From a virus, in the IMG/VR virus record IMGVR_UViG_3300018868_001228, positions 1 to 43,616 of that record: 43,616 nucleotides of DNA; one strand, written 5' to 3'. The notes beneath the pieces were generated by a model that was given only the letters and a program-made list of their open reading frames with translations, searched no databases and was not told where the DNA came from. Below, one piece after another: positions 238 through 41,809 of the stretch. Position numbers and translations under genes: made by a program. Position 1 is the first letter of the stretch. Each line of letters opens with the position of its first letter.

Positions 238-250
238 TTCGTATAGAGCT
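238..250 (-). promoter_or_regulatory. Phage-wide CTATACG motif, minus strand
   Basis: Read on the minus strand this is GCTCTATACGAAG, about 25 bases upstream of the 70-aa gene. It matches the core of the repeated motif but lacks the GGT block at the usual distance. Confidence 0.45.
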
Positions 251-253
251 TAG

Positions 254-691
254 TTACCAATATCCGTAGCGCGACGTCCAGGGCATCAACCGACGGCACC
301 ATTGTCGTATCAGCATCTGCGCCAGCTTATTCAGGTCCTCTTGTCCGTAAGCATGCTGGATGTCCATATGTCGATAGAGCGTTGCGGTCGCTCGGTCGTA
401 GGTGTGGCACCCGAGCATGACGAGCGTTTCAGACAGGCCAGCGACGGGGCAATGCGGTATGACGATGTGGCCGGCAAGTTCAAGTGTCATGGACAGCGGC
501 CAGTCAGGTGCAAAAGTTGGAATTACTAACCTCACAATCCCCGGGTCTGCTTCGGCAAGATAAGCGCCGGCTAAGCTGTCAACGCGCCAGGTCAGATACT
601 TCACCAGCACTTCTCGTTCGCTTGCGTCGAATTCAACGTCAACGTCGGCGTTGTACAACATGACCCACATGCGAGCAAAGATAGCGTGCAT
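254..691 (-). CDS. Hypothetical protein (145 aa), coupled to the upstream gene
   Basis: Unknown function. The open frame extends up to 766, but the start at 691 (protein beginning MHAIFARMW) is preferred because its ATG shares one base with the TAA stop of the preceding gene (TAATG), and a GGAG lies about ten bases upstream. It is mixed alpha/beta in character with no transmembrane helix. Weak resemblance to the upstream 211-aa protein is visible in the middle (a strand-rich stretch around LSMTLELAG versus FSLDLSNN) and in the Gln-Trp-containing C-terminus, so the two could be distant paralogs. That similarity is by eye only. Confidence 0.6.
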   Translation of the reverse strand: MHAIFARMWVMLYNADVDVEFDASEREVLVKYLTWRVDSLAGAYLAEADPGIVRLVIPTFAPDWPLSMTLELAGHIVIPHCPVAGLSETLVMLGCHTYDRATATLYRHMDIQHAYGQEDLNKLAQMLIRQWCRRLMPWTSRYGYW

Positions 692-1326
692 TAGTAGCTC
701 CGCATCATCACTTCCTCGACCCCGGGACCGCCCCAGGGCCAGCGGCCTTCCAGACGCATGGACCATTGGACCAGCAGCAGGGTCCCAAGCACATCTAGGG
801 CATCCTGCGCCAGGTACTCGCCACCGTCACCACGGTCGAGCAGCAACACGCCTGAGTCGTTGTCGTCTTCTCGCGCATAGCTCAGATTTCGGGGTATGAC
901 GAGCATGTGGCTATAAATATCGCGAACAGCTCCGCAATAGAATGATACTGGTCGAGCGATATTATTTGATAGGTCCAGGGAAAATACGAAGTCATTACCC
1001 CTAACTATGCCGGCTATACTAAGCCGAGCATCTTGAGGCGCTCCAGTAAATGCACTGACGTGCGTCCCCCTGACTGGATGCTTTGAATTCAACCATTGTG
1101 CGAACGCCATAGCCGCCGTACCGCTATCGGTGAATGCGGTACCGTACCGCTCACGCAACTCCTCCCGGGCAATATCCAATATTGTGTATTGATACTGCCC
1201 AGGAATAACTGATTCGATATTCTGATTTCCCGATATATTTGGATTTATGCATTCAATATCGGATAAGGGCGGCGCCTCGTCCATTGACGTCAACCCGAAA
1301 TCTTCCCAATTTCTTTTCTCGCTCAT
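691..1326 (-). CDS. Hypothetical protein (211 aa)
   Basis: Unknown function. An in-frame ATG exists upstream at 1398, but 1326 (MSEKRNWED) is chosen because GGAGAGG sits at ideal spacing before it, and the longer frame would run through a terminator hairpin at 1361-1386. The protein is acidic at its N-terminus, has no membrane helix, and contains a central strand-rich region. It is translationally coupled (TAATG) to the 145-aa gene downstream, so the two probably work together. I see no recognisable motif. Confidence 0.6.
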   Translation of the reverse strand: MSEKRNWEDFGLTSMDEAPPLSDIECINPNISGNQNIESVIPGQYQYTILDIAREELRERYGTAFTDSGTAAMAFAQWLNSKHPVRGTHVSAFTGAPQDARLSIAGIVRGNDFVFSLDLSNNIARPVSFYCGAVRDIYSHMLVIPRNLSYAREDDNDSGVLLLDRGDGGEYLAQDALDVLGTLLLVQWSMRLEGRWPWGGPGVEEVMMRSY

Positions 1327-1360
1327 GGCCTCTCCAAAGTGTGGACAGACCAGCATAACG

Positions 1361-1386
1361 AAAAAAAGGGGCTGTAAACAGCCCCT
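1361..1386 (-). terminator. Intrinsic terminator after the small HTH gene
   Basis: On the minus strand AGGGGCTGT and its exact complement ACAGCCCCT form a 9-bp stem followed by a run of seven T. It lies about 50 bases past the stop of the HTH gene and separates it from the 211-aa gene. Confidence 0.8.
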
Positions 1387-1434
1387 AAGTCGTGTCAATA
1401 GAGAAATATTTCTCTAAACAAGTTTGGTGGAGAT

Positions 1435-1650
1435 TTAGCCCTTTCCACCTGGCTGCAGCACGCCGCCAGCAGCTTCCCAAGCCTGTACATCCTCGAGTTT
1501 GTACAGTACGCGGCCGGCCTGTTTAAACCAGGCAGGTCCTCGTGCTTTGAGGTATCGCCAGTTATTGATGGTGCGTTTGTTGTACGGGCGGGGGTAGCGC
1601 GAAGCGAGATACGCTACCAGCTCGTCGGTTGTCATGTAAGTCGGTTGCAT
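1435..1650 (-). CDS. Small helix-turn-helix DNA-binding protein, excisionase/AlpA-like (71 aa)
   Basis: The sequence has the layout of a MerR-like winged helix of the Xis/AlpA type: a first helix (MTTDELVAYLASRY), a recognition helix around RTINNWRYL, then a wing and a C-terminal helix (LYKLEDVQAWEAAG). I chose the start at 1650 (MQPTYM) over 1677 because GGAG lies eight bases upstream. It could be an excisionase for the integrase or a small regulator. It is transcribed leftward, divergent from the RNA ligase gene, and both directions carry a copy of the CTATACG motif in the 112-base gap. Confidence 0.65.
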   Translation of the reverse strand: MQPTYMTTDELVAYLASRYPRPYNKRTINNWRYLKARGPAWFKQAGRVLYKLEDVQAWEAAGGVLQPGGKG

Positions 1651-1675
1651 CGTGCACTCCATAGATAGTAAGTGC

Positions 1676-1691
1676 AACGTATAGGCACAGC
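1676..1691 (-). promoter_or_regulatory. Phage-wide motif driving the small HTH gene
   Basis: On the minus strand this reads GCTGTGCCTATACGTT, a close match to the repeated GGTGCCTATACGT motif, 26 bases upstream of the start at 1650. A short dyad (GTGC/GCAC) flanks the CTATACG core. Confidence 0.6.
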
Positions 1692-1708
1692 GTTTTTATG
1701 CGTGTAAA

Positions 1709-1751
1709 GCCGGTTGCTACACGTAGTGCAGTCATGTGACTGCGCTTACGT
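1709..1751 (+). promoter_or_regulatory. Phage-wide motif plus long hairpin before the RNA ligase gene
   Basis: GCCGGTTGCTACACGT at 1709-1724 is a strong copy of the motif and shares the preceding GTGTAAA with two other copies (4.0 and 18.3 kb). Starting at the ACGT of the motif, bases 1721-1751 form a 14-bp stem with one bulge (ACGTA..GCAGTCA against TGACTGC..TTACGT). The RNA ligase start follows 11 bases later. Confidence 0.65.
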
Positions 1752-1762
1752 GAAAGCGCTGA

Positions 1763-2860
1763 ATGAACACGCAATTCCCCCTTATCAAAAATATCAATGA
1801 CGTCCTTCCGCACATCGCCGATAAACCTGAAATCATGGTCCGCCCAGGCCCGTTTGGCAGCCAAACCATCTGTTATCAATTCCAAGACAGTAAAACGTTC
1901 GATAATGAGTTTACAGCTGAATGTCGCGGTATCGTATTCGACCGCGAGGGTAATACCGCGGCACGCCCGTTGCACAAATTTTTCAACATCGGTGAGCGCC
2001 CAGGCACCGAACCGGACTTAGCCAGCGCTGTTCGCATCATGGAAAAATTGGATGGGTCGATGGTTCACACCGTCTGGTTGGACGGCCAGTTGCATCTGAA
2101 ATCAAAGAAGTGCTGGGACAACGCCCAGACCAAGATGGCATGGGAGTGGCTGCGTCGGCCGGAAAACGAAGGCGCATTGCAGCTTTGCACTGATTCAGCC
2201 AGCTTGGGATATACCGTTATCTTCGAACTTACAAGCCCGACAAACCGTATCGTCGTCGGCTACAGCGATACCGACATGCGGTTGCTGCATGTTCGTCGGA
2301 ATGTCGATGGTGAGTATGCCGATACACGACGGCTGCAGTTTTTGAGCAACAATTATGCGGTCCGCTTGGTCAACGAAGGCATGTCGGTGACAGCGGCCTT
2401 GGAAAGCCTGCCAGGCCTAACTGACGCTGAAGGATATGTCCTGCAGTTCGAGAATGGCGACATGGTCAAGGCGAAGTGCCCGTGGTACTTGAACTTGCAC
2501 CGCACTCTCAGCTTCACGCGGGAGCGTGACATCGCCGAAGCCGCGTTGGAAGAGCGCCTGGATGACATCAAATCAGCGCTGACCACCATCGGGACCGACT
2601 TAGCGGCCGTGAACGCCATTGAGGCGCGAGTCAAGGCAACGCTCGTTGCCGCATTGAGCCGTTTCTCGTCCGTGATGCTGGTCGAGAGTCTCGGAATGGA
2701 CCGCAAGACCTTTGCCATACGCTACAAAGGCGACCCCTTATTCGGGCTTCTGATGGCCGCCTACACGAACCGGGAGCCGGACTGGAAAGAGTGGTTCCGC
2801 CGCAATCACCTGAGGCAAGACTATTCGCTTGCCCCAGTCGGCCAAGCAATTGACGAATAA
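1763..2860 (+). CDS. RNA ligase, T4 Rnl1 (RnlA) type
   Basis: This is an ATP-dependent RNA ligase that joins 5'-phosphate and 3'-hydroxyl RNA ends, in T4 to mend tRNAs cut by host anticodon nucleases. The nucleotidyltransferase motifs are present in order: motif I KLDGS with nucleophile Lys95, a preceding RGIVFD segment, motif IIIa FE (Glu155), motif IV EGYVLQF (Glu223) and motif V VKAK (Lys236, Lys238). The spacing between Lys95, Glu155, Glu223, Lys236 and Lys238 equals that of the known T4 Rnl1 residues Lys99, Glu159, Glu227, Lys240 and Lys242. At 365 aa it is close to T4 Rnl1 (374 aa). No polynucleotide kinase is seen beside it, but a HAD protein of the RNA-repair type lies at 41.8-42.4 kb. 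Confidence 0.9.
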   Translation: MNTQFPLIKNINDVLPHIADKPEIMVRPGPFGSQTICYQFQDSKTFDNEFTAECRGIVFDREGNTAARPLHKFFNIGERPGTEPDLASAVRIMEKLDGSMVHTVWLDGQLHLKSKKCWDNAQTKMAWEWLRRPENEGALQLCTDSASLGYTVIFELTSPTNRIVVGYSDTDMRLLHVRRNVDGEYADTRRLQFLSNNYAVRLVNEGMSVTAALESLPGLTDAEGYVLQFENGDMVKAKCPWYLNLHRTLSFTRERDIAEAALEERLDDIKSALTTIGTDLAAVNAIEARVKATLVAALSRFSSVMLVESLGMDRKTFAIRYKGDPLFGLLMAAYTNREPDWKEWFRRNHLRQDYSLAPVGQAIDE

Positions 2861-2865
2861 CCATA

Positions 2866-2892
2866 GGCCCTCTTCGGAGGGCTTTCTTTCTT
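2866..2892 (+). terminator. Intrinsic terminator after RNA ligase
   Basis: GCCCTC-TTCG-GAGGGC forms a stem with a stable tetraloop, followed by a T-rich tract. It begins six bases after the ligase stop. Confidence 0.8.
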
Positions 2893-2990
2893 TGGTGATT
2901 TGGTTAGAAAAGCTACCTATAAGCAGCAGTGGCAAAAAATAGTTTATATATTTGCGTACGATTTAACAATTCGACCCTCATTCGTGTAAT

Positions 2991-3004
2991 TGAGTGCTAT
3001 ACAG
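2991..3004 (+). promoter_or_regulatory. Phage-wide motif copy (TGAGTGCTATACAG)
   Basis: A moderate match to the motif, 33 bases upstream of the 175-aa gene, flanked by a GTAAT/ATTAC dyad. The preceding ~100 bases are AT-rich and otherwise featureless. Confidence 0.5.
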
Positions 3005-3036
3005 TGTATTACCAACCTAAATGCAGGAGCACTACA

Positions 3037-3564: not shown

Positions 3565-3583
3565 ATAGAAGTTGTACCCACCG

Positions 3584-3606
3584 AGCCCTGCAATGCGGGG
3601 CTTTTT
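3584..3606 (+). terminator. Intrinsic terminator between convergent genes
   Basis: AGCCCTG and CGGGGCT (one G-T pair) form a 7-bp stem with loop CAATG, then five T. It ends at the stop codon of the convergent minus-strand gene. Confidence 0.7.
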
Positions 3607-3983: not shown

Positions 3984-4029
3984 TCATACAGTATATCAAG
4001 GGCACGCCTGCAGTGTAATCGCGTGTAAA

Positions 4030-4068
4030 GCCGGTGCCTATACGTGAAATCAACTAACGATTTCACGT
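4030..4068 (+). promoter_or_regulatory. Phage-wide motif with perfect 10-bp dyad before helicase
   Basis: GCCGGTGCCTATACGT at 4030-4045 is the best-conserved form of the motif. ACGTGAAATC (4042-4051) and its exact complement GATTTCACGT (4059-4068) make a perfect 10-bp inverted repeat with a 7-base loop that begins inside the motif and ends two bases before the ATG at 4071. Confidence 0.7.
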
Positions 4069-4070
4069 CA

Positions 4071-6058: not shown

Positions 6059-6118
6059 GGTTGTAGCCGAAGTTGGTAAGGCACAAACACTACAGTAGAA
6101 CGCAAGTAGCGGCTAGTA

Positions 6119-6156
6119 GCCCGGTAGCTACACGAGAGAACACAACTTCTCTCGTG
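6119..6156 (+). promoter_or_regulatory. Phage-wide motif with perfect 10-bp dyad before VRR-NUC gene
   Basis: GCCCGGTAGCTACACGA carries the motif. CACGAGAGAA (6131-6140) and its exact complement TTCTCTCGTG (6147-6156) form a 10-bp stem with a 6-base loop starting inside the motif. The start codon follows eight bases after the stem. Confidence 0.7.
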
Positions 6157-6164
6157 AGCTATCA

Positions 6165-6515: not shown

Positions 6516-6860
6516 ATGGGTGCCTCACAATACGCGCGTGACCGCAAGCGCATCTACGAAGAGGCCGCTACGAGGGGCCTCGGCTGGCGCAAAGCTGCAC
6601 TAAAGCGGCTCAACAAGGAATACGGCGCCCAGCCTATCAAGCGCGCCGGCAAGTTGGTGGGCGTACGCCTGGACGAAGACCGCGGCGTCATTTGCAAGAA
6701 GAAGAGCTTCAAGACCAGGGAGCTCGCGGAAGCCGCCTTGGAGCAGATTGAACGCTACCGGCCAGCTGAGGGCGTCAAGCCATGCCGGGTCTATGAATGC
6801 CAGTTCTGCGGAAAATTCCACCTTACATCCATGGCAAATTGGCAGCCGCCTCGAGAGTAA
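6516..6860 (+). CDS. Hypothetical protein with CxxC motif (114 aa)
   Basis: Unknown function. It is basic, with an N-terminal helical region and a C-terminal segment (CRVYECQFCGKFHLTS) that looks like half of a zinc ribbon or a CxxC...H knuckle, so nucleic-acid binding is plausible. The ATG follows the VRR-NUC stop without a gap, and GGAGG sits six bases upstream. It is probably co-translated with the nuclease and ends at a strong terminator. Confidence 0.7.
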   Translation: MGASQYARDRKRIYEEAATRGLGWRKAALKRLNKEYGAQPIKRAGKLVGVRLDEDRGVICKKKSFKTRELAEAALEQIERYRPAEGVKPCRVYECQFCGKFHLTSMANWQPPRE

Positions 6861-6864
6861 TACT

Positions 6865-6888: not shown

Positions 6889-6921
6889 TATCTTCAGTAT
6901 TGCCGCTCAGAAATATAAGAC

Positions 6922-6935
6922 GTGGTGACTATACC
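6922..6935 (+). promoter_or_regulatory. Phage-wide motif copy (GTGGTGACTATACC)
   Basis: Matches GGTGNCTATAC and lies 47 bases upstream of the 88-aa gene. No strong dyad is visible here. Confidence 0.5.
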
Positions 6936-7248: not shown

Positions 7249-7255
7249 TTCCGAA

Positions 7256-7324: not shown

Positions 7325-8011
7325 CTACGCCAGGATACCGGCTGGCAACTCTTGCTGGATGTACTCGGCCATGGCAGGGTTGGTCCGGGCACGTACGCGG
7401 CTCAGGACTTGGAGGCCCTTCTCGGCCTGGCAAACAATGAGGAAAGGCGTGCCGGCCTTCGAAAGTTCTTTCACGCGCTCTTGGTCTCTGGTGCCGAAGC
7501 CTGCCGCCAAGTACACGCCGAATTTGGCCTGGCCATCGGTGCTGAGCAGTGCTGCATCAAAGTGTTTGTACTCGCGCTTGCCAAGGAAGCCGCGGACCAG
7601 CCCACGCTGGCCGACTGGCACTAGGTTAGCCTCGGCCATCAGGCGGCTGCACAGCTCAATCAGCACGTGTCGAGGCATCGCCATGTTCAAGCTAAGGTCA
7701 TAGCCGTGGGCAAACCAAGGCAAGCCGTCGTCGGATTCATCAGCCAGGTACTGGTCGATATAGCGCTCGATGAGCATGTCGGCACCGGCACGGGTCAGCA
7801 CGTAAGCATGCGTCACACCGCTGAACGGCAGTTCTCGCGCAAGCACGAGCCCTTCTTTGCGCAGGCGAGTCAGCCACGATTGCGCGCTCTTCAGCGCCGA
7901 TTTCTGAGTGATGCTGTGCCAGGTCAGCATGCCCACTTCGCGTGTGGTGAGATAGCCAAATGTACCGATGTGCGTGAGGATTGCATAGGTTGTGGGATTC
8001 TCGAGTTTCAT
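7325..8011 (-). CDS. Replic_Relax-like winged-helix protein (228 aa)
   Basis: The N-terminal ~80 residues form a winged helix of the replication-relaxation type: ILTHIGTFGYLTTREVGML, a recognition helix in ALKSAQSWLTRLRKEGL, and a wing ending YVLTRAGADML. The C-terminal half (FDAALLSTDGQAKFGVYL, then GTPFLIVCQAEKG) is alpha/beta and could bind DNA or nucleotide. Proteins of this type occur on plasmids and mobile elements, where they are linked to mobilisation or replication control. Its presence close to parA supports a plasmid-like maintenance module. A motif copy with dyad lies just upstream. Confidence 0.65.
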   Translation of the reverse strand: MKLENPTTYAILTHIGTFGYLTTREVGMLTWHSITQKSALKSAQSWLTRLRKEGLVLARELPFSGVTHAYVLTRAGADMLIERYIDQYLADESDDGLPWFAHGYDLSLNMAMPRHVLIELCSRLMAEANLVPVGQRGLVRGFLGKREYKHFDAALLSTDGQAKFGVYLAAGFGTRDQERVKELSKAGTPFLIVCQAEKGLQVLSRVRARTNPAMAEYIQQELPAGILA

Positions 8012-8032: not shown

Positions 8033-8061
8033 GAGTTCGTGATAACTCGTGTAGCTACCCC
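8033..8061 (-). promoter_or_regulatory. Phage-wide motif with dyad, minus strand
   Basis: On the minus strand GGGGTAGCTACACGA (8061-8047) runs into a GAGTT-6 nt-AACTC inverted repeat (8048-8033), about 20-50 bases upstream of the winged-helix gene at 8011. Confidence 0.65.
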
Positions 8062-8761: not shown

Positions 8762-8776
8762 GCCGGTGCCTACACT
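8762..8776 (+). promoter_or_regulatory. Phage-wide motif before membrane protein gene
   Basis: GCCGGTGCCTACACT matches the motif. It precedes a 59-base stem-loop and then the membrane protein gene. Confidence 0.6.
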
Positions 8777-10318: not shown

Positions 10319-10666
10319 TCATGCCTGCTTTTCCCAGGGCAGCTCAGGCGCTACCGGCTCGGGGAGAGTCATCGCGAATCGCTCTAGGAACTCCTGGGCC
10401 GACATGCCGGCGCGGTGCGCTGCTGCGTTCAGGCGGGCGTTAGCATCGAGCGTCAGGCGCACGTTGAACTGTTTGAGCGTCGGCTTGGCCGGTTTCTCCG
10501 GGACCGCGGCGGGCGTAGAGGCGGCTACGGGTTTCGGCTGGTCAGCTGGCGGCCAGGAGGCAGGCTTGGGAGCTTCTGCCGGCGCGGGTGCAGGGGTCTC
10601 AGGGGTTTTGCGGAGGGCGGTACGGACGGCGTCCAGGTTCGAGAGCATAGATTGAGCGTTTTTCAT
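10319..10666 (-). CDS. Ribbon-helix-helix partition partner of ParA (115 aa)
   Basis: The C-terminal ~50 residues contain a ribbon-helix-helix pattern: a strand (KQFNVRLTLD), a helix (ANARLNAAAHRAG) and a second helix (SAQEFLERFAM). The N-terminal half is a disordered Pro/Ala/Lys-rich linker. Placed 26 bases downstream of parA with an AAGGAG site, it is the expected small DNA-binding adaptor (ParB/ParG-type) of a type Ib partition system, which binds the centromere and stimulates ParA. The long N-terminal linker would reach the ATPase. Confidence 0.75.
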   Translation of the reverse strand: MKNAQSMLSNLDAVRTALRKTPETPAPAPAEAPKPASWPPADQPKPVAASTPAAVPEKPAKPTLKQFNVRLTLDANARLNAAAHRAGMSAQEFLERFAMTLPEPVAPELPWEKQA

Positions 10667-10692
10667 GGTGGATACTCCTTAAAGATTTAGAT

Positions 10693-11325
10693 TTATTTCG
10701 CGGCCATTGCCGTGGTGAGCACTTCTACAGCTACGGCTTCAAGTTCAGAGACGGCAGCTTTTGCTTTAGCGTGGCCAAGCTGGCGGAGACCGACGCCGTA
10801 GGCAGCTGCTTCGCGGTACGCAGTACGGAAGCCGAGCGTGTACTTGGCGACGGGCCAGGTCTGGCGGTAGGCCGATTCCATCTCCGCCGAGTGATTCGTC
10901 GGGGTAGCCATGTTCAGCACTATCAGGCAGGCCAGGTCGGGCTTACGCAGCTTGGCCGCGATGAGCATTTCGTCAGTCGACCAGTAGTCGGGAGCGCTAG
11001 GCGTGGCGGGCACCATCAGCAGGTCGGCTACGTCCAGAGCGGCGAGCGTCTCAGGCGCTTCAGCATCTGGCGGGCAGTCAATCAACACCAGCTCGGCGTC
11101 GATGGAACCCAAGACTGTGGTCAGTGTTGCAGCAGTGGCCTTCACAACCAGAGGGGCAAACTTATCCCCACCTGCTTTGGCCCATGCGCTGCAGGTACCT
11201 TGCTTATCCATGTCGACAATCGCGACACGAAACGCGGGGGTTGCGAGGGCGGCCGACAACAAGGCAGCGGTCGTACTTTTGCCGACACCCCCTTTGTTGT
11301 TGGCCGAGGCGATACACAATTTCAT
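10693..11325 (-). CDS. parA: ParA-family partition ATPase
   Basis: A short (210 aa) ParA/MinD-type P-loop ATPase with deviant Walker A KGGVGKST (Lys11 and Lys16), switch I-like segment around DMDKQGTCSAW and Walker B-type LVLIDCPP. It lacks an N-terminal HTH, which is typical of type Ib partition ATPases. With the following ribbon-helix-helix gene it forms a partition operon, implying that the phage can persist as a low-copy plasmid or uses ParA for positioning. A strong AAAGGA ribosome site precedes the ATG, and a motif copy lies at 11377-11391 on the same strand. Confidence 0.9.
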   Translation of the reverse strand: MKLCIASANNKGGVGKSTTAALLSAALATPAFRVAIVDMDKQGTCSAWAKAGGDKFAPLVVKATAATLTTVLGSIDAELVLIDCPPDAEAPETLAALDVADLLMVPATPSAPDYWSTDEMLIAAKLRKPDLACLIVLNMATPTNHSAEMESAYRQTWPVAKYTLGFRTAYREAAAYGVGLRQLGHAKAKAAVSELEAVAVEVLTTAMAAK

Positions 11326-11376
11326 TGAACGTCCTTTCTTGATTGCATTGTTAGCGGGGCTAGCAGAAGCCCTTTA

Positions 11377-11391
11377 CACGTATATGCACCA
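11377..11391 (-). promoter_or_regulatory. Phage-wide motif before parA
   Basis: On the minus strand TTGGTGCATATACGT matches the motif with one change in the spacer (GCAT for GCCT). An ACGTGT direct repeat flanks it. It lies 52 bases upstream of the parA start. Confidence 0.55.
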
Positions 11392-11488: not shown

Positions 11489-11504
11489 CCTGGTCGCTAT
11501 ACGT
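11489..11504 (+). promoter_or_regulatory. Phage-wide motif before candidate small RNA
   Basis: CCTGGTCGCTATACGT is a strong match. No gene starts within 250 bases downstream; a terminator follows after 57 bases. Confidence 0.6.
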
Positions 11505-11698: not shown

Positions 11699-11712
11699 GC
11701 GGTTGCTAGACC
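11699..11712 (+). promoter_or_regulatory. Degenerate motif copy before the replication genes
   Basis: GCGGTTGCTAGACC resembles the motif with CTAGAC in place of CTATAC, followed by a CAGGCG/CGCCTG hairpin. It precedes the 96-aa gene and the helicase. Confidence 0.4.
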
Positions 11713-11754
11713 TTGTACAGGCGGATTTCGCCTGGTTCAACTTGGAACCGCATC

Positions 11755-14640: not shown

Positions 14641-14680
14641 CCGGTTTTCGCTATACAGAGCTCTCACCCCGCAGGAGCTC
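14641..14680 (+). promoter_or_regulatory. Phage-wide motif with GAGCTC dyad before lysis genes
   Basis: CCGGTTTTCGCTATACAG is a motif copy. Two GAGCTC blocks (14658-14663 and 14675-14680) form an inverted repeat; the right arm contains the GGAG ribosome site of the small membrane protein gene at 14683. Confidence 0.6.
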
Positions 14681-14682: not shown

Positions 14683-14877
14683 ATGGTTCACGTTTTCATC
14701 TCTGTAGTACTGCTCCTTGTCATTGGTCAGGGGGTTGCCGGCCGCGCTGCCTATCTAGCTTTGCGCTCTGACCCGCATGACGCAGCCTACTCCTGGGCTG
14801 CACTCTTTGCGGGGCTCTTCTATTGCGCATCGGCGCTCGAGCTGGCAGTGGCCTTGGTGCTTTGTGCCTATACCTAG
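14683..14877 (+). CDS. Small membrane protein, holin candidate (64 aa)
   Basis: Two hydrophobic segments fill most of the protein (VFISVVLLLVIGQGVAG and WAALFAGLFYCASALEL...ALVLC), joined by a short polar loop. Size and two-helix layout fit class II holins or small pinholin-like proteins that time lysis by permeabilising the inner membrane. GGAG sits six bases before the ATG. It is the first gene of the lysis block, upstream of a coiled-coil membrane protein and the endolysin, which supports the holin call. No holin family motif can be named. Confidence 0.6.
   Translation: MVHVFISVVLLLVIGQGVAGRAAYLALRSDPHDAAYSWAALFAGLFYCASALELAVALVLCAYT
14862..14874 (+). promoter_or_regulatory. Phage-wide motif copy (TTGTGCCTATACC)
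   Basis: The motif copy lies at the very 3' end of the small membrane protein gene, 40 bases before the next gene. No dyad is evident. Confidence 0.45.
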
Positions 14878-15267: not shown

Positions 15268-15302
15268 CAGTAGCTATACGAGGCATCTACTTCATAGGTG
15301 CC
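15268..15302 (+). promoter_or_regulatory. Phage-wide motif with dyad before endolysin
   Basis: CAGTAGCTATACGA is followed by GGCATCT/AGGTGCC, a 7-base imperfect inverted repeat ending three bases before the endolysin ATG. Confidence 0.55.
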
Positions 15303-17399: not shown

Positions 17400-17448
17400 G
17401 CCGGTGCCTATACGAATAAACGGCAAGACGTTCGTTTAATGTTTATTC
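17400..17448 (+). promoter_or_regulatory. Phage-wide motif with dyad before serine recombinase
   Basis: GCCGGTGCCTATACGA (17400-17415) overlaps the start of an exact GAATAAAC/GTTTATTC inverted repeat (17414-17421, 17441-17448). The dyad could also be a recombination subsite for the recombinase. Confidence 0.6.
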
Positions 17449-18121: not shown

Positions 18122-18331
18122 TCGCTCGATTTGATGGCAAACTGCCCCGCCGCGGCGGGGCCCTTGCCCACAGGGGGTGCCCCTCCCCCCCCCGCCCCCT
18201 CTTGGGAGCGCGCGTGGCCGGCGCTTGCCCCACCCGAGAGGCGAAAACAAATCAAATCCCTTTTGGCGCCTCGTGCATCGGCGTGTAAAGCCGGTGCCTA
18301 TACGTTATATCAACAACTCACGAGGTGCCTA
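18122..18331 (+). other. Intergenic GC-rich stretch with motif copy and spanning dyad
   Basis: No gene. It contains a GCCCCGCCGCGGCGGGGC hairpin (about 18144-18161) without a T tract and a run of ten C near 18187. The motif GCCGGTGCCTATACGT at 18290-18305 is preceded by GTGTAAA. An inverted repeat spans it: GGCGCCTCGTG (18265-18275) against CACGAGGTGCC (18319-18329), one mismatch; its right arm includes the ribosome site of the next gene. Confidence 0.6.
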
Positions 18332-19345: not shown

Positions 19346-19378
19346 GCTGTTCTCTATACGGGTCGATGAATATCGACC
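19346..19378 (+). promoter_or_regulatory. Phage-wide motif with dyad overlapping the terL start
   Basis: GCTGTTCTCTATACGG is followed at once by GGTCGAT-GAAT-ATCGACC, an exact 7-bp inverted repeat in which the terL ATG lies at the edge of stem and loop. No Shine-Dalgarno is visible. Confidence 0.6.
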
Positions 19379-20658
19379 TGAACCTCACCGAACCCCAACG
19401 AGAATTTGTCCTCTCGAAAGACAAATACCCCGCATTCGTCGGGGGTTTTGGTGCTGGAAAGTCGGAATCACTAGTCAACCGGCTGCTGCTCCAGGCCCTG
19501 CAGAACCCAAAGGGCCAGGTCGGCTACTTCGCCCCGACTTTCGACCTTATCCGTCTTATCGCCTGGCCGCGGTTCCTGGCAAAGTGCGACGAGTGGGGCA
19601 TCAGGGCAACGTTAAACAAGACGGAAAACATCCTGTCGCTCAAACGCGGCGGCCGTATCGTGTTCCGCACGCTCGACACCCCGGAGCGCATCGTGGGTTT
19701 CGAGATTTGCCACGCCGGCATCGACGAGCTCGACACCCTGAAGGAAGACCACGCCCTGGCGGCCTGGCGGGCTGTCAACGCCCGTGTGCGTTTGAAGACC
19801 CGCGACGGCTCGCCCAACACGGTATCCGTCGGCACGACGCCTGAGGGATTCAAGCTGGTCTACAAGCTCTGGGAATTTGACCCCAAAGAGGGATTCCGCC
19901 TGTACCGCGCGCCAACGCGCTCGAACCCATTCCTGCCGGCCGACTACGTCGCCCAGCTGATGACGCAGTACCCTCCGCACCTGCTGAAGGCGTATCTGGA
20001 AGGCCTCTTCGTCAACCTGGCTCAGGGTTCGGTATATCCGGACTTCTCGCGTGCGCTCAATGCTACGGATGTCGTCGCCCTGGGCATCCAGAACCACCAT
20101 GGCATGTTGATTGGTCAGCCCGAGCCTCTGCATATCGGCATGGACTTCAACAAGGGCCAGGGAGCTGCAGCCATCGGTGTGCTCCGCGATGGTCAGTTGT
20201 TCATCGTAGGGGAAGAGACCAAAACGGCCGACACCCCGGACATGATTGCTCGGCTCAAAAAACGCTACCCGGGACACCACATCACGGTCTATCCGGACGC
20301 CTCAGGCGCCCATGGCAGCAGCACGAACGCCAGCATGTCCGACCTGCGCCTTCTTCAAGAGGCCGGATTCACCGTCGTAGCCCGCGCCGCCAATCCGCGG
20401 GTGGTCGACCGGGTTACGTCACTGAACGCCTACATCCTGAATGCAGAAGGCGCCCGTCGCCTGCGCGTCAATGTCACGGCCTGCCCAGAGCTGACCCTGT
20501 GCCTGGAGCAGCAGGTATACGACAAGAACGGCGCACCCGACAAATCAGCGGGTAAGGACCACCTCAACGACGCCCTGGGCTACCTGGTCTACGCATTGTT
20601 CCCTATCGTGAAGCCGGTAGCTACACGTGAAACACAAATCATTCACGTAGGACGCTAA
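19366..20658 (+). CDS. terL: Terminase large subunit
   Basis: The packaging motor and nuclease that cuts concatemers and pumps DNA into the prohead through the portal. The ATPase domain has Walker A GGFGAGKS (26-33) and Walker B with Asp120-Glu121 in HAGIDELD; SVGTTPEG fits the coupling motif. The C-terminal RuvC/RNase H-like nuclease shows GMDFNKG, YPDASG and DHLNDALGY with the expected acidic residues. Its 430 aa are normal for the family. The start has no ribosome site and lies inside a small dyad only a few bases after the CTATACG motif, so the mRNA may be nearly leaderless. The portal gene follows directly. Confidence 0.93.
   Translation: MNIDLNLTEPQREFVLSKDKYPAFVGGFGAGKSESLVNRLLLQALQNPKGQVGYFAPTFDLIRLIAWPRFLAKCDEWGIRATLNKTENILSLKRGGRIVFRTLDTPERIVGFEICHAGIDELDTLKEDHALAAWRAVNARVRLKTRDGSPNTVSVGTTPEGFKLVYKLWEFDPKEGFRLYRAPTRSNPFLPADYVAQLMTQYPPHLLKAYLEGLFVNLAQGSVYPDFSRALNATDVVALGIQNHHGMLIGQPEPLHIGMDFNKGQGAAAIGVLRDGQLFIVGEETKTADTPDMIARLKKRYPGHHITVYPDASGAHGSSTNASMSDLRLLQEAGFTVVARAANPRVVDRVTSLNAYILNAEGARRLRVNVTACPELTLCLEQQVYDKNGAPDKSAGKDHLNDALGYLVYALFPIVKPVATRETQIIHVGR
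20613..20648 (+). promoter_or_regulatory. Phage-wide motif with dyad before portal
   Basis: GCCGGTAGCTACACGT lies inside the last codons of terL. ACGTGAA (20625-20631) and TTCACGT (20642-20648) are exact complements. The portal ATG follows 10 bases later with AGGA as ribosome site. Confidence 0.6.
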
Positions 20659-22565: not shown

Positions 22566-22587
22566 GCCGGTTGCTATACGTGTACAC
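22566..22587 (+). promoter_or_regulatory. Phage-wide motif with GTGTACAC palindrome before scaffold
   Basis: GCCGGTTGCTATACGT runs into GTGTACAC (22580-22587); a GGGC/GCCC hairpin follows. The scaffold gene starts 41 bases later. Confidence 0.65.
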
Positions 22588-22628
22588 AACCCTGGGCTGA
22601 TGCCCATTCAATCGTAACGGAGAGCCTG

Positions 22629-23219: not shown

Positions 23220-23243
23220 TGCCGGTGCCTATACGTACCGGCA
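23220..23243 (+). promoter_or_regulatory. Phage-wide motif inside a perfect 7-bp dyad before capsid gene
   Basis: GCCGGTGCCTATACGT occupies the left arm and loop of the exact inverted repeat TGCCGGT / ACCGGCA (23220-23226, 23237-23243). Confidence 0.7.
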
Positions 23244-23262
23244 ACTAGCTATCGGGAGTCGA

Positions 23263-23298
23263 CCTCCAGAGCTTGAAAACAACTTTTCATTCTGGAGG
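23263..23298 (+). promoter_or_regulatory. Leader hairpin that buries the capsid ribosome site
   Basis: CCTCCAGA (23263-23270) is the exact complement of TCTGGAGG (23291-23298), and GAAAA/TTTTC pairs inside. The right arm contains GGAGG, the Shine-Dalgarno of the major capsid gene (ATG 23304). Ribosome access would require opening the stem, or the hairpin protects the mRNA 5' region. Confidence 0.65.
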
Positions 23299-24700: not shown

Positions 24701-24730
24701 TTGGTAGCTATACGTCGCAATGGCTACCAA
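24701..24730 (+). promoter_or_regulatory. Phage-wide motif within an 8-bp dyad; start codon in the loop
   Basis: TTGGTAGC (24701-24708) and GCTACCAA (24723-24730) are exact complements. The CTATACG core and the ATG at 24720 both lie between the arms. No Shine-Dalgarno is present; the ATG is five bases after TATACG, exactly as at terL. Confidence 0.65.
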
Positions 24731-26739: not shown

Positions 26740-27975
26740 ATGCTCGTCGTTACTCAACCCTTTGCAAGCTACCAGCGCGGCGACCGAATCACCGATGCCG
26801 GACTCATTGCGACTATCTTGGCAACAGAAGAAGCCCGCAATGTCATCGTAGTTGGTACCCCTGCCACGCCGCCGCCGGTTCTGGCGCAGCGGACGCTGCT
26901 CGAGCTCCTGGCTGACATCGCCGACAACGGTGGCGCAGTCCTGCAGCCGCAACTCATCGACGTGCTGCCGGATGCAAACGGTAAGCCGCCTACAGGCTAC
27001 GAGTGGTTGCCGGGCGTCTCGGCGCAGCACAATTACGGCTGCGCGCTCACTGACTATGCCCAAGCCGGTCTGTTTAACCCAATTCCATGTCAGACCGGGT
27101 TTGCAAATTCGTCCTGGTTCGCTGGCCAAGACCACCTCCAGGTCAACGCGGTTCGTTCTGAGACCAACGCCACTTTTGGTCTGACTATTCCGACGCCAGT
27201 AGACGCCCTGGAAGTGGTGCTGGTGGGCGCTCAGATTCTGTCCGACAGCAGCGCATTTATCTCGTACAAAATCCAGCAGCCGGATGGCAACTGGTACCTC
27301 AACACGTGCATCGCTCACGACGATGGCACCGTCACAAACGCCGCTTCGCAGCAGCTCATGCATCCAGGCTTCCTGGCCGTCCCGCAGGCAGTAGCGACCA
27401 TTGGTGCGTATTTTGTGCAGTCCTTCTTCGAAATCGGCTACCTGCTCGTGGACGCCAACACTGGCGTGCAGACCCTCGACCCGGGGCCGGCCACGCACGG
27501 AGTGCTGGTTGCCAGCGATGCAAACGGAATTTACGTTCAACGCGGTGGAGACCCAGTCCTGCTTTACGTACCCCTGACGATTTCCACAGTTGCAGGTGTC
27601 CCTACCCTGGCCGAAGGCGAGAACGTAGTCGTCATGCCAATCCCTGGCGGCACCGCTGGAAACCTGACTTCGCCATACCTGCCTATCGGTGCGACGCACA
27701 TCCCCAATGGCCCGTTCGTTCTCTGCACGCGTGCAGGATTCTTCGAAGTGAACACCGCCGTCGCCAACGGCTACGCATCAGTATCGGTACGTCAAACCGC
27801 AGGCGTTCATCCGCTCACGTCGCTCGGCATGCATGGAACTGATGACGACGTGAAATGCATGCGCTTTGACGGCGTGAACGGCACTCTCCACACCCTGTCG
27901 GCGAGCAGCGAAGTGGTCTTCGATTACATGACGCTGAAGTCCCTTTTTGTGCGCAAAGCACGCCTCATCGCCTAA
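26740..27975 (+). CDS. Structural protein of unknown role (411 aa)
   Basis: Not recognised. It lies between neck genes and the sheath and has two parts. The N-terminal ~60 residues (MLVVTQPFASYQRGDRITD) look like a small attachment domain. The rest is beta-rich with Gly/Asn/Ala turns, resembling a receptor-binding or decoration jelly-roll. The composition is typical of a virion surface protein. It could be a capsid decoration, whisker/collar or head fibre. CCCCCGATG gives a poor ribosome site, although GAGAG lies about ten bases upstream. Confidence 0.55.
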   Translation: MLVVTQPFASYQRGDRITDAGLIATILATEEARNVIVVGTPATPPPVLAQRTLLELLADIADNGGAVLQPQLIDVLPDANGKPPTGYEWLPGVSAQHNYGCALTDYAQAGLFNPIPCQTGFANSSWFAGQDHLQVNAVRSETNATFGLTIPTPVDALEVVLVGAQILSDSSAFISYKIQQPDGNWYLNTCIAHDDGTVTNAASQQLMHPGFLAVPQAVATIGAYFVQSFFEIGYLLVDANTGVQTLDPGPATHGVLVASDANGIYVQRGGDPVLLYVPLTISTVAGVPTLAEGENVVVMPIPGGTAGNLTSPYLPIGATHIPNGPFVLCTRAGFFEVNTAVANGYASVSVRQTAGVHPLTSLGMHGTDDDVKCMRFDGVNGTLHTLSASSEVVFDYMTLKSLFVRKARLIA

Positions 27976-27985: not shown

Positions 27986-28144
27986 ATGTTCGAAATCAAA
28001 AAATCTACGTTCGGTTGGACCGTCTACTTGAACGGTCTCTCCCTCCGCGTTTTCGCTACCGAAGACCTCGCCGCGGGATATATCGCCCAGGTACGCACTG
28101 GTGACTATACGTCAGGTGCAGCAACTAATTCTGGAGCCCAATAA
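27986..28144 (+). CDS. Small hypothetical protein (52 aa)
   Basis: A short gene with a strong CGGAGG ribosome site five bases before its ATG. The product (MFEIKKSTFGWTVYLNG...) is a compact beta/alpha peptide without membrane helix. Its TAA shares a base with the sheath ATG (TAATG). A motif copy lies within its coding sequence at 28098-28113. Good ribosome site, tight packing and coupling argue that it is real. Confidence 0.6.
   Translation: MFEIKKSTFGWTVYLNGLSLRVFATEDLAAGYIAQVRTGDYTSGAATNSGAQ
28098..28113 (+). promoter_or_regulatory. Phage-wide motif before sheath gene
   Basis: CTGGTGACTATACGTC is a good match, 31 bases upstream of the sheath start and inside the preceding small gene. Confidence 0.55.
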
Positions 28145-30139: not shown

Positions 30140-30173
30140 GGGTGGTGCCTATACAGGGCATCACCCTTTCTTT
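30140..30173 (+). promoter_or_regulatory. Motif in the loop of a terminator-like hairpin
   Basis: GGGTGGTGCC (30140-30149) and GGCATCACCC (30157-30166) form a 10-bp stem with one mismatch, loop TATACAG, followed by TTTCTTT. The motif GGTGGTGCCTATACAG coincides with left arm and loop. The element could terminate sheath/tube transcription and start the next unit at one site. Confidence 0.6.
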
Positions 30174-30730: not shown

Positions 30731-31213
30731 ATGAGCCAGTTTAACTCGTTGGGCGCCTTTGCCCTGCACATCGCGTCACTCCAGGCGAGGCAGCAGCACG
30801 CCGCGGAGAAGGGACTGAAAAAGGTCGCTCAGGCCATCGAGAAAACCGCAAAGAGCGAATTCGGCGTGTACCAGCCGGCAGTCGGGCCCTTCTCGGAGTG
30901 GGCACCCCTGGCGGAGTCTACGCAGGAAGAGCGCCTTCGTCTGGGCTTTACGCCTGATGACCCTTTGCTGCGCACGGGCCAGCTGAAGAACTCGATATCT
31001 CATGAAGTTCACGGCACAGAGGCGGCCGTAGGTAGTCCCTCCGACGTGATGGTGGCACAGGAGCTCGGCACGCCCAGGATTCCTCCTCGCCCTGTTTTAG
31101 GGCCTGCTGCTATACGAAATAAGCAACTCATCTTGAAAACTCTTGGTCAGGCCGCCGTCGAAGGCCTGCTGCCTCCAGGAGTAGTCGCTCCCAATTACAA
31201 CAACCTATCGTGA
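30731..31213 (+). CDS. Virion morphogenesis / tail-completion protein (160 aa)
   Basis: Features of the HK97 gp10/Mu gpG-like completion family: an N-terminal helical repeat (KGLKKVAQAIEKTAKSEFG), then WAPLAESTQEERLRLG, LLRTGQLKNSISHEV and QELGTPRIPPRPVLGPA, the last being a hallmark of virion morphogenesis proteins. It would close the head or terminate the tail tube. Its placement between tail chaperone and tape measure is unusual but not rare. Ribosome site GGAG lies about nine bases upstream. Confidence 0.78.
   Translation: MSQFNSLGAFALHIASLQARQQHAAEKGLKKVAQAIEKTAKSEFGVYQPAVGPFSEWAPLAESTQEERLRLGFTPDDPLLRTGQLKNSISHEVHGTEAAVGSPSDVMVAQELGTPRIPPRPVLGPAAIRNKQLILKTLGQAAVEGLLPPGVVAPNYNNLS
31100..31114 (+). 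promoter_or_regulatory. Possible motif copy before tape measure gene
   Basis: CCTGCTGCTATACGA lies within the 3' part of the preceding gene, about 110 bases before the tape measure start. It lacks the GGT block and a dyad, so it may be chance. Confidence 0.3.
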
Positions 31214-36126: not shown

Positions 36127-36132
36127 GCGCAA

Positions 36133-38910: not shown

Positions 38911-38925
38911 CACGCGAGAACAATA

Positions 38926-40023: not shown

Positions 40024-40026
40024 GCA

Positions 40027-40053
40027 AATCGGTCCTTCGGGGCCGATTTTTTA
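40027..40053 (+). terminator. Intrinsic terminator after fibre gene
   Basis: AATCGGTCC-TTCG-GGGCCGATT with six T in the following tract. Confidence 0.88.
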
Positions 40054-40072
40054 TACATTTTGCATGGAGGCA

Positions 40073-40103
40073 TTGACGCCAGGAACCGCGTTGTGTTTAC
40101 AAT
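40073..40103 (+). promoter_or_regulatory. Sigma-70-like promoter for the tnpB-like gene
   Basis: TTGACG (40073-40078) and TACAAT (40098-40103) separated by 19 bases resemble a standard host promoter. This differs from the phage-wide CTATACG motif, so the downstream gene appears to carry its own expression signal. Confidence 0.5.
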
Positions 40104-40133
40104 AACAACTCAGCAGTTATCGAACAGGCAATC

Positions 40134-41237
40134 TTGGAATACACGACTCGAGTTCTCCGCGTTCGCATCAAAGACCGCCACGCTAAACAGCTGCGTGAGC
40201 TGTCTGAGGAAGTGAACCTGGTATGGAACTACACCCAGGAGTTAGCCCTTCGAGTGCTCGAGCGAGAGCGGCGGTTCATGACTGCATTCGATGTGCAGCC
40301 GTACGTCCGCGGCGCCGGGAAAGCCGGCATGAAGCTGCACAGCCACAGCATCCAAGGTGTCTACGAAGAGTACATTCGCCGGCGCTACCACGCGAAGAAG
40401 ACCAAACTGCGTTGGCGCGTATCCGCTGGCCGGCGCCGCAGTCTGGGCTGGATTCCCTACAAAACGAAGGGAGTGCGCGTTCGGGCGGGCAAGCTTTTCC
40501 TGGCCGGCGTGGAAGGCCCTGTTGGCGTGTGGGACAGCTATGGCCTGTCGAACTACGACATCCACGGCGGGAATGTCTCGGAGGACGCACGCGGCCGGTG
40601 GTACGCCAATCTTTGCGTCAGACTGCCCTATGTTGCTAGCAAAGCTATGGAAGCTCGCGAGGCAATCGGCATCGACCTTGGGCTGAAAGATTTGGCGGTG
40701 CTGTCGAATGGTGAGAGCATTGAAATCAGGCGGTTCTACCAAGCGATTGAGCCAAAGTTGGCCGTGGCGCAGCGGGCACGGAAGAAGGACCGCACTCGAG
40801 CGCTCAACGCGAAGGCGTCGAACCAGCGGCGGGACTACCTGCACAAAATCAGTTCAGACTTAGTGCGAAGGTACGGTGAGATTTATGTGGGCGATGTAGA
40901 TGCCTCGAAGCTGCAGAAAACCCGGTTGGCAAAGGCTGTGAGCAATGCTGGCTGGAGTGCATTACGAACCATGTTGCAGTACAAGTGCGATTTCGCCGGC
41001 GCGCGGTTCGAAGTAGTAGACGAAAAATACACAACCCGAGCATGCTCAGGCTGCGGAAGCTGTAGTGGTCCGCAAGGCCTGGCAGGACTCGGAATAAGAG
41101 AGTGGGTCTGTCCAGACTGCGGAATGCGCCATGAAAGAGACGTCAACGCCGCAACGAACATTCTCGCGCGCGGGCATGCGCGCCTTGTAGAAGGAAGCCC
41201 CGCTAGCGCGGGGCGGATGCCAACCTGGCAGGTATAG
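40134..41237 (+). CDS. tnpB: TnpB-like RNA-guided nuclease family protein (IS200/IS605 OrfB), second RuvC acidic residue altered
   Basis: A 367-aa TnpB of the kind found stand-alone in many prophages. The N-terminal half is basic and helical. The RuvC-like part has motif I IGIDLGLKDL (Asp181) and motif III HERDVNAATNIL (Asp336), with an intact zinc ribbon between them (Cys304, Cys307, Cys326, Cys329). In motif II the usual IEDL is VGDV (251-255 region), so the catalytic Glu position is Gly253. Nuclease activity is therefore doubtful. Translation starts at TTG 40134. No TnpA is present. GC-rich hairpins at the 3' end fit the scaffold part of an omega RNA. Confidence 0.88.
   Translation: MEYTTRVLRVRIKDRHAKQLRELSEEVNLVWNYTQELALRVLERERRFMTAFDVQPYVRGAGKAGMKLHSHSIQGVYEEYIRRRYHAKKTKLRWRVSAGRRRSLGWIPYKTKGVRVRAGKLFLAGVEGPVGVWDSYGLSNYDIHGGNVSEDARGRWYANLCVRLPYVASKAMEAREAIGIDLGLKDLAVLSNGESIEIRRFYQAIEPKLAVAQRARKKDRTRALNAKASNQRRDYLHKISSDLVRRYGEIYVGDVDASKLQKTRLAKAVSNAGWSALRTMLQYKCDFAGARFEVVDEKYTTRACSGCGSCSGPQGLAGLGIREWVCPDCGMRHERDVNAATNILARGHARLVEGSPASAGRMPTWQV
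41197..41229 (+). ncRNA. Candidate omega-RNA scaffold hairpins at the tnpB 3' end
   Basis: GCCCCGC-TAGC-GCGGGGC (41197-41214) and a smaller GCCA/TGGC hairpin (41219-41229) lie in the last codons of the tnpB-like gene, where the scaffold of the guide RNA of TnpB elements is expected. Bases just after about 41230 would be the guide. Confidence 0.4.
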
Positions 41238-41245
41238 CAGCAGGC

Positions 41246-41521
41246 TTAGTGGCAGTTCATCTCTGCGATGCACTGCCGGTGATAGTCAGATTTGCACAGC
41301 TCGAGCATGTGCAATTCATAGTCCGTGAGCCGGTCGCGAACGTCGACCGGCTGCTCGTGCTGCCAGCCCATCGCGACAATGAACGCCGCAGCGTTTTCGA
41401 GGGTCGAACATGAGGTCTTATAGCCGTCAGGGGCGATGACGTAGTAAGGACCTTCACAGCCAATGCCCCAGCTGAGAGCGTTGGCATTGGTGGTACCGAG
41501 AATGCAGTTTCGTACGTTCAT
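41246..41521 (-). CDS. Hypothetical protein (91 aa)
   Basis: Unknown function. Seven cysteine and histidine residues are scattered, with a pair of conserved-looking segments (GIGCEGPYYVIAPDGYKTSC and TLENAAAFIVAMGW). Its ribosome site GAGAGGA lies seven bases before the ATG. It is convergent with the tnpB-like gene, ending only eight bases from it. Confidence 0.6.
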   Translation of the reverse strand: MNVRNCILGTTNANALSWGIGCEGPYYVIAPDGYKTSCSTLENAAAFIVAMGWQHEQPVDVRDRLTDYELHMLELCKSDYHRQCIAEMNCH

Positions 41522-41539
41522 ATGTCCTCTCGAGAGTAG

Positions 41540-41767
41540 TTAGTTCAGTGCTTTGCGTGGGCGGCCGCGGCCCTGCTTTGCGGGTATTACGAGCTTTGCA
41601 AATGCTGGTTTCGGCTGAATGAATTTATGGACTACGGCTTCATCCCACAGCAGCTTGCGGCCCAGCTGCACGGGTTGCGGCAACAGGCCTTTGCCCATAT
41701 AGGCTGTAATTGTTCGAACAGACACTCGCAGCATGTCCGCCAGCTCACTCTTCGTCATGTACCTCAT
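41540..41767 (-). CDS. AlpA/Xis-type helix-turn-helix protein (75 aa)
   Basis: A clear winged-helix/HTH_17 pattern: KSELADMLRVSVRTITAYMGKGLLPQPVQLGRKLLW, in which VSVRTITAYM is the recognition helix. The C-terminal tail is basic (KQGRGRPRKALN) with an AT-hook-like GRPRK. Proteins of this family act as excisionases or as activators of integrase genes. Its location near the integrase fits this. A motif copy with nested dyads lies just upstream. Confidence 0.75.
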   Translation of the reverse strand: MRYMTKSELADMLRVSVRTITAYMGKGLLPQPVQLGRKLLWDEAVVHKFIQPKPAFAKLVIPAKQGRGRPRKALN

Positions 41768-41770
41768 ATC

Positions 41771-41809
41771 CTCGGGCTCCGCACACCTAAAACCGGTGTA
41801 GAACCCGAG
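41771..41809 (-). promoter_or_regulatory. Phage-wide motif with nested dyads, minus strand
   Basis: On the minus strand CGGGTTCTACACCGG (41807-41793) matches the motif. CTCGGG/CCCGAG flanks it, and ACACC/GGTGT forms an inner stem. The AlpA-like gene starts four bases after the outer dyad. Confidence 0.6.

Follow-up and report, generated by a model that had tools for sequence, protein, structure and literature searches.

The phage and its gene content

The stretch of DNA analysed here, called the window throughout, is a 43.6-kb virus record (IMGVR_UViG_3300018868_001228, 43,616 nucleotides; G000 among the records compared) of a contractile-tail phage that is probably temperate. The element in question is a short directional motif with the core CTATACG, which recurs before the genes of this phage and is often joined to a hairpin. 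The virion genes encode terminase, portal, scaffold, capsid, sheath, tape measure and Baseplate_J proteins, the lysis genes a lysozyme and an Rz-like protein; a D5-type primase represents replication, and a tyrosine integrase-like gene occupies the right end.

Among the matches listed, the named phages are distant (at best 47-48% identity for the terminase and 52% for the capsid). Thirty terminase relatives from bacterial genomes were compared. The nearest are 50-55% identical and come mostly from beta-proteobacteria (a Burkholderiaceae metagenome-assembled genome, Ralstonia, Paraburkholderia and Aquitalea); the others of the thirty are scattered over gamma-, alpha- and other proteobacteria. 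Locus L001 (14.9 kb) is the same phage as the window, with 100% protein identity.

A directional motif without a -35 element

The pattern GGTNNCTAYACG has 22 matches in the window at up to one mismatch, as compared with a mean of 3.2 and a largest count of 9 in 100 shuffles; 12 of the matches are exact, and the reversed pattern has none. A sequence-only reading of the same DNA had listed 24 sites. All of them carry the core, 23 as CTAYAC and the one near 11384 as CATATACG, and two further sites (11706+ and 31110+) were added. A position weight matrix (PWM) was trained on the 24 listed sites, so that its counts in the window are circular, while those in the related records G002, G011 and G012 are independent. 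The PWM yielded 75 sites, of which 63 were left once near-duplicate orthologues had been removed. Positions are numbered from the C of CTATACG as index 0.

The motif consensus is TGTAAAGCCGGTNNCTATACGT, without a -35 element, and the alignment of the 63 sites reads T-G-t-A-A-A-g-C-C-G-G-T-N-N-C-T-A-T/C-A-C-G-T. The C, T, A, A and C of CTAYAC are almost invariant; site selection rested on the region from -14 to +8. Outside this region, an A at index 11 is conserved (40/63). The position after CTAYAC is G at 44 of the 63 sites and T at only 3, opposite to what the -10 elements of sigma-70 and sigma-S show. TTG occurs within indices -32 to -16 at 12/63 sites vs. 15/63 in a control stretch, and a weak excess of T at -24 to -22 is the sole signal in the -35 region. 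These counts confirm two remarks of the sequence-only reading, that there is no constant -35 and that G replaces T at the end of the -10-like block. Between -45 and +29, no conserved second promoter signal was found. Rfam gave no match, and no published description of the CTATACG motif was recognised among the papers listed from the literature searched, a body that leaves out most subscription journals.

The motif stands before many leading genes and points into them

In the window, 24 sites score at PWM>=12, a set that includes 11706 and 31110 and omits the weak sites 2997 and 14651. A same-strand start codon lies 10-80 nt downstream of 21 of them, as compared with 4 on the wrong strand and with 4.9% of random points; the gene list behind these counts was made by hand, and the starts of 4 of the 21 (4038, 14868, 18298 and 30149) were moved to the codon behind the motif. 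The distance from motif to start in the 21 placed sites is 12-75 nt. Of 32 genes that lack a close neighbour on their own strand, 18 are preceded by the motif; of 28 operon-internal genes, 3 are. The earlier statement that the motif marks nearly every transcription-unit start was too strong.

An intrinsic terminator lies within 90 nt upstream of 9/63 sites vs. 1.65% of 4000 random points, and at 5 sites (two of them orthologues) the end of the terminator arm falls between -15 and -24, just where a -35 element would be expected. Furthermore, some sites form divergent pairs placed back to back, with cores 33 bp apart in the window and 37 bp apart in G002; wider pairs are separated by 112 and 111 bp. 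Pairs as close as the first two have hardly any space for other promoters. Taken together, the placement, the terminators and the divergent pairs are better explained by a promoter than by a repressor site or an RNA element.

Hairpins begin at the end of the motif

A stem was counted if it had at least 5 bp with at most one G-U pair, a loop of 3-14 nt and a start at index 3-9. Such stems were found at 29 of the 75 sites, as compared with 9.8 +- 3.1 (maximum 21) in 200 shuffles, and at 23/63 after the removal of near-duplicates. The onset is sharp: indices 0 to 2 have 0-2 stem starts each, indices 3 to 6 have 4-7 each, and the mean far from the motif is 1.25. The folding z-score in 30-nt windows over the 75 sites has its minimum at the A of ACG (mean -0.91), being -0.64 for windows starting at -2, -0.37 at 10, -0.33 at -8, -0.35 at -14 and between -0.25 and 0.18 elsewhere (starts from -50 to -20 and from 16 to 58). 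Taken alone, with a cut-off of z<-1.5, folding energy singles out 9 of 26 window sites and 8 of 25 G002 sites, a weaker picture than the stem count gives.

Exact stems occur, among other sites, at 4038, 6128, 20621, G011 23314 (ACGTG-gcta-CACGT) and G011 6136, while those at 11385, 11706, 22574 and 23229 lie farther downstream. In a second class the stem spans the motif, whose 5' half can pair with the start region (24708, 41801, 6128, 8054 and 30149); at 6128+ a part of the motif is likewise able to pair near the start codon. The left part of the motif pairs downstream in modest excess (mean z -0.54, standard error 0.14; controls -0.10, -0.23 and -0.11). The sequence-only reading had counted at least 14 dyads; the stem criterion is satisfied by 10 of 24 window sites, and about 14 are reached when the spanning stems (24708, 30149, 41801) and 14651 are added. 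Of the arms that it quoted, TTGGTAGC (24708) and GGGTGGTGCC (30149) belong to the spanning class, and the one at 30149 resembles an intrinsic terminator.

As had been claimed, the arm sequences differ between sites. Between phages, a stem may be kept while its loop changes (4038 vs. G011 6817; 1684 vs. G011 4342). Covariation, proposed earlier as a check, was followed in orthologue families matched by eye and by gene order, and it gave a divided result. In the family of 1684 the outer pair, T-A in the window, is A-T in G002, a double compensatory change; in the second hairpin of the family of 23229 double changes from A-U to G-C and from G-C to C-G separate the window from G002 and L006, these two being alike in this respect. 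The family of 11706 is mixed, with a double change in G002 yet an A-C break in G011, and the hairpin of 6128 is mostly lost in G002.

The ribosome-binding site was considered as the general target of the hairpins and given up: a start codon was assigned by hand at 49 of the 63 sites, 21 of which have a 5' stem, and the right arm covers the Shine-Dalgarno (SD) zone in 11 of these 21 vs. 10.5 when permuted (position correlation r = 0.26, n 20).

Distribution of the motif among the phages and chromosomes compared

Besides L001, four other records or loci carry the motif: G002 (44.6 kb, terminase 85% identical), L006, G011 (43.8 kb) and G012 (a 21.8-kb fragment). At PWM>=10, G002 has 27 sites vs. 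6 in the reversed control; at PWM>=14, G011 has 17 vs. 1 and G012 has 5 vs. 0. G011 has its early region, lysis genes and integrase region in common with the window (67-80% DNA identity in blocks), whereas its virion module shows hardly any relationship (four weak matches), and this module also carries sites, e.g., 23314, 29948, 34463 and 36275. G012 has a different virion module, and no blastp match links any of its proteins to the other three records at 1e-4; its 8 sites at PWM>=9.5 all lie on the strand of the annotated genes.

Outside the lineage, the exact core is absent from the whole records of seven relatives with a terminase identity of up to 55%, and occurs once in locus L031. The 207 loci from outside the lineage, partly overlapping and 2.49 Mb in all, give 16 hits at PWM>=14, fewer than the 54 of the reversed control. 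In the gap before the sheath gene, the relatives listed have terminator-like stretches. A broad pattern scan returned at least 117 stretches, of which L313 and L222 were followed and led to G011 and G012, respectively; among the matches listed, most of its loci score like chance, and L290 and L312, tested whole, have no excess of the motif. A tighter scan gave 46 loci, mostly a single conserved coding stretch of other phages. Unsupervised 8-mer enrichment failed to recover even the known motif and is therefore uninformative on relatives.

The motif was also sought in bacterial chromosomes, first in 4 genomes and then in two samples. Among 300 Burkholderiales chromosomes none has more than 11 hits of GGTNNCTATACG and none stands out from the reversed control, vs. 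8 in the 43.6-kb window alone; for CGGTNNCTATACG the highest count in 299 Pseudomonadota genomes is 4, again with none that stands out from the reversed control, vs. 5 in the window. The two samples overlap by about 20 genomes, so that about 580 Pseudomonadota genomes were covered, and the host of the phage may lie outside them. None of these genomes is enriched, and the idea of a promoter common in Pseudomonadota chromosomes is left unsupported.

A putative promoter giving transcripts with a 5' hairpin

Starting from the motif, its direction and placement at gene starts, its sharing and absence among relatives and the excess and register of the hairpins, all of them observed, we favour the interpretation that the motif is a compact, lineage-specific promoter of about 22-25 bp, which would start many transcription units and provide their transcripts with 5' hairpins. 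Judged from the DNA alone, we give it a probability of roughly 0.58. The sequence TGTAAAGCCGGTNNCTATACGT would serve this temperate lineage as an orientation-specific promoter. RNA would most likely start with the A of CTAT-ACG or very shortly behind it, and many transcripts would therefore have a hairpin at or near the 5' end. Such a hairpin may slow 5'-end-dependent mRNA decay and could also keep the leader apart from the downstream SD sequence. A factor encoded in the shared early region, e.g., the 71-aa helix-turn-helix (HTH) protein (1435-1650), or a host factor would direct RNA polymerase to the motif. A transcript with a hairpin at its very 5' end had been suggested in the sequence-only reading, and it remains the best fit to the sharp onset of stems at the motif end, the unit starts, the terminators and the divergent pairs, even though the A at index 11 suggests a later start.

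Several observations weigh against this interpretation. The A at index 11 is present both with a 5' stem (16/23) and without one (24/40), and it looks like an initiator, which suggests a start falling after the left arm. The stem criterion is failed by 46 of the 75 sites; stem starts are raised upstream of the motif too (5 at -16, 4 at -17 and at -5), and in some orthologues the hairpin is weak or absent (G002 5051, window 18298). One of the sites, 30149, resembles a terminator as well, and another, 20621, falls within a coding region in which motif-free relatives look similar. The strand evidence for pairing in RNA is slight: sense minus antisense z is -0.24 +- 0.13, while the energy difference is opposite (+0.22 +- 0.32 kcal), and the single imperfect pairs comprise 7 G-U, 2 A-C and 6 other mismatches. 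Finally, the scans described below revealed no polymerase or sigma factor to read the motif.

The main rival is likewise a promoter, but one from which a multi-subunit RNA polymerase would start at index 11-13. The local transcript would then lack the left arm, and the hairpin would form only in read-through RNA and hide the ribosome site there, as in T4 gene e. The A at index 11 speaks for it, as does the pyrimidine-purine step at 10/11, the commonest such step in positions 6-29 (32/63). Four assigned start codons lie at index 12, which would make the transcripts nearly leaderless (window 19354 and 24708, G012 15227 and L006 4739, the last being the orthologue of window 24708). Furthermore, the hairpins of the lysozyme, HTH and terminase genes cover the SD sequence or the AUG, and the left part of the motif pairs downstream above the controls, as given above. 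However, the right arms do not track the SD zone, and several hairpins leave the SD sequence free (1717, 8054, G011 23314, G011 36275). On balance, we consider the later start unlikely, though it is the rival to be taken most seriously.

An array of stoperators as in phage L5, where a lysogeny repressor would bind asymmetric sites and stop transcription at gene starts, appears quite improbable (on stoperators: PMC9283540). About 25 asymmetric, directional sites near the gene starts of a temperate phage speak for it, but the surroundings of the sites show no further conserved promoter signal. Sites resembling sigma-70 promoters (10 of 12 positions) number 0 in both the window and G002, and 1 each in G011, G012 and the motif-free G010; these low counts are not diagnostic, because motif-free relatives are low as well. 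The divergent pairs offer little space for separate promoters, and a repressor site has no need of a hairpin in fixed register. Least probable is an RNA element, transcribed from upstream promoters, that a processing nuclease or an RNA-binding protein would recognise as a single strand followed by the hairpin, for which the hairpin directly after the motif and the genes for an RNA ligase and a HAD_SAK_2 protein might speak, but the divergent pairs stand 33-37 bp apart, and upstream RNA would stop before the motif at the 5 sites where terminators end just in front of it.

To return to the preferred promoter with a start inside CTATACG, a bolder version can be put forward tentatively, as something we would sooner doubt than assert: an undescribed promoter class of a phage lineage with exchangeable virion modules, with a 22-25-bp signal read by a new polymerase specificity, in which many mRNAs would have a 5'-terminal hairpin, pairing rather than sequence is selected and unrelated virion modules, once acquired, are refitted with the promoter-hairpin unit. 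If the promoter is real, the 25 or so similar units would offer a natural series on the effects of 5' hairpins on mRNA life and translation, and might reveal a new way of redirecting bacterial RNA polymerase. The presence of the unit on the largely unrelated virion module of G011 and in G012 would then mean that mosaic phages place new modules under one control system.

Candidate factors

Pfam scans of 39 of the approximately 60 window proteins gave no hit to a single-subunit RNA polymerase; a genome search with PF00940 gave no match either, but its control also matched nowhere. Sigma region 2 (PF04542) was absent from all four records (G012 being a fragment), its control being found in 11 of 14, and a divergent factor similar to T4 gp55 may escape this search. 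A phage-modified polymerase specificity, one alternative of the sequence-only reading, stays a candidate. In the bolder version above, the host RNA polymerase would perhaps be steered by a small MerR/AlpA-like phage protein that binds GCCGGT.

Candidates common to the window, G002 and G011 include the 71-aa HTH protein (1435-1650), a 114-aa protein (6516-6860) and a 228-aa protein (7325-8011). The HTH protein is 90% identical in G002 and 69% in G011, and in all three phages its own gene stands behind a motif site. The 228-aa protein has no match in named phages or plasmids, and its IMG/VR matches are G002 and G011 only; its AlphaFold model has a mean pLDDT (predicted local distance difference test) of 57, and Foldseek returned nothing at E<=0.001. 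A 411-aa protein (26740-27975, +), encoded between the capsid and sheath genes, has no family match and no match among the motif-free loci compared; it was rejected as a polymerase on the lack of a family match and on a sequence that by eye is not polymerase-like.

Comparison with known systems

T7-like promoters span about 22 bp with fixed spacing and no -35, have TATA beside the start and provide late transcripts with 5'-terminal hairpins. The window motif is alike in length, spacing, lack of a -35, TATA near the proposed start and proposed 5' hairpins, and unlike in that the phage is temperate, no single-subunit polymerase was seen among the proteins scanned, the proposed start is A rather than G and a conserved A lies downstream. 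The sigma-S -10 element is KCTAYACT; the likeness lies in CTAYAC with C or T at the fourth position, but the window motif avoids T thereafter (3/63) and is not enriched in the sampled chromosomes. T4 late promoters are read with the phage sigma factor gp55.

Among promoters of host polymerases redirected by a phage, those of phiEco32 and 7-11 come nearest, as far as the consulted part of the source describes them (PMC8948821): the gp36 promoter of phiEco32, tAATGTAtA, is one -10-like block without a -35 and occurs six times, and phage 7-11 has eight bipartite sigma-factor promoters. They share with the window motif that they are phage-specific, and the phiEco32 promoter shares the single -10-like block and the lack of a -35 as well. 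Unlike these and the T4 late promoters, the window motif has another sequence, about 25 sites and hairpins, and no sigma-like gene was found in the four records searched. In T4 gene e, according to the portion of PMC3014915 at hand, the 5' strand of a hairpin contains the promoter, an arrangement found ahead of the lysozyme gene and others; the window hairpins, unlike it, occur at many genes and do not track the ribosome site.

The nearest in anatomy are the start-associated sequences (SAS) and extended SAS (ESAS) of cluster K mycobacteriophages, as far as the excerpt of PMC3203893 goes: the SAS are asymmetric, mostly in one orientation, and sit directly ahead of the starts of genes that belong to different families; about half are joined to an inverted repeat. 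In both systems a directional conserved sequence before gene starts is combined with inverted repeats. The SAS sequence is GGGATAGGAGCCC, and the ESAS arms, of 17 bp with a conserved consensus, lie upstream of it (same excerpt). Unlike ESAS, the arms in the window lineage differ in sequence and lie mostly downstream of the motif. The SAS sequence, as given in that excerpt, adjoins the start codon; the window motif differs from it in consensus and spacing.

The sites in the window and neighbouring features

Table 1. Motif sites of the window with their hairpins and neighbouring genes
Site	Positions	Strand	Hairpin	Remarks
246-	240..251	-		weak GGT part; precedes open reading frame 1-213
1684-	1653..1689	-	stem 1676-1653	precedes 71-aa HTH gene
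1717+	1712..1751	+	1721-1751	back to back with 1684-; precedes RNA ligase gene
2997+	2992..3003	+		weak site, CTATACA, PWM 11.8
4038+	4033..4068	+	4042-4068, perfect, 10 bp	precedes helicase gene
6128+	6123..6156	+	6131-6156, 10 bp	precedes VRR-NUC gene
6929+	6924..6935	+		CTATACC; terminator arm ends 48 nt upstream
8054-	8033..8059	-	8048-8033	precedes 228-aa gene 7325-8011
8770+	8765..8776	+		CTACACT; 141 nt to next start codon
11385-	11357..11390	-	11372-11357	ATATACG; precedes ParA-like gene
11497+	11492..11503	+		258 nt to next listed start codon
11706+	11701..11734	+	11718-11734	CTAGACC; additional site, absent from earlier list
14651+	14646..14680	+	dyad 14658-14680	weak site, PWM 10.6; dyad over SD-like sequence
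14868+	14863..14874	+		CTATACC
15274+	15269..15302	+	15282-15302	covers lysozyme SD; hairpin kept in G002, G011
17408+	17403..17448	+	17414-17448	precedes serine resolvase gene
18298+	18293..18304	+	no clear hairpin	G002 counterpart has a 6-bp one
19354+	19349..19380	+	19359-19380	hairpin includes terminase start codon
20621+	20616..20648	+	20625-20648, 7 bp	within 3' end of terL; precedes portal
22574+	22569..22606	+	22593-22606	precedes scaffold
23229+	23224..23267	+	23255-23267	precedes major capsid
24708+	24701..24730	+	stem spans motif and start codon	directly after terminator; start codon at motif +12
28105+	28100..28111	+	no clear hairpin	precedes tail sheath
30149+	30140..30166	+	inside terminator-like dyad	also in G002
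31110+	31105..31116	+		additional site, absent from earlier list; inside gene 30731-31213
41801-	41771..41809	-	spanning stem CTCGGG/CCCGAG	CTACACC; precedes excisionase-like gene; also in G002

In the leader of the serine resolvase gene (17408-17448), about 30 nt behind the motif are nearly identical in G002. One and the same phage encodes both a T4 Rnl1-like RNA ligase (1763-2860, +) and a protein with a HAD_SAK_2 domain of the RNA-repair type (41812-42396, -). A gene for a ParA-like ATPase (10319-11325, -) stands together with a NikA/HicB-like gene in an arrangement resembling partition systems, a pair that perhaps points to a phage-plasmid state. A TnpB-like gene with OrfB_IS605 and Cas12f1-like TNB domains (40134-41237, +) lies 3' of the tail-fibre region and is 87% identical to its G011 counterpart. 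Both the window, at 43616, and the G011 contig stop where the integrase-like gene has its start codon, as if a provirus had been trimmed at a gene border.

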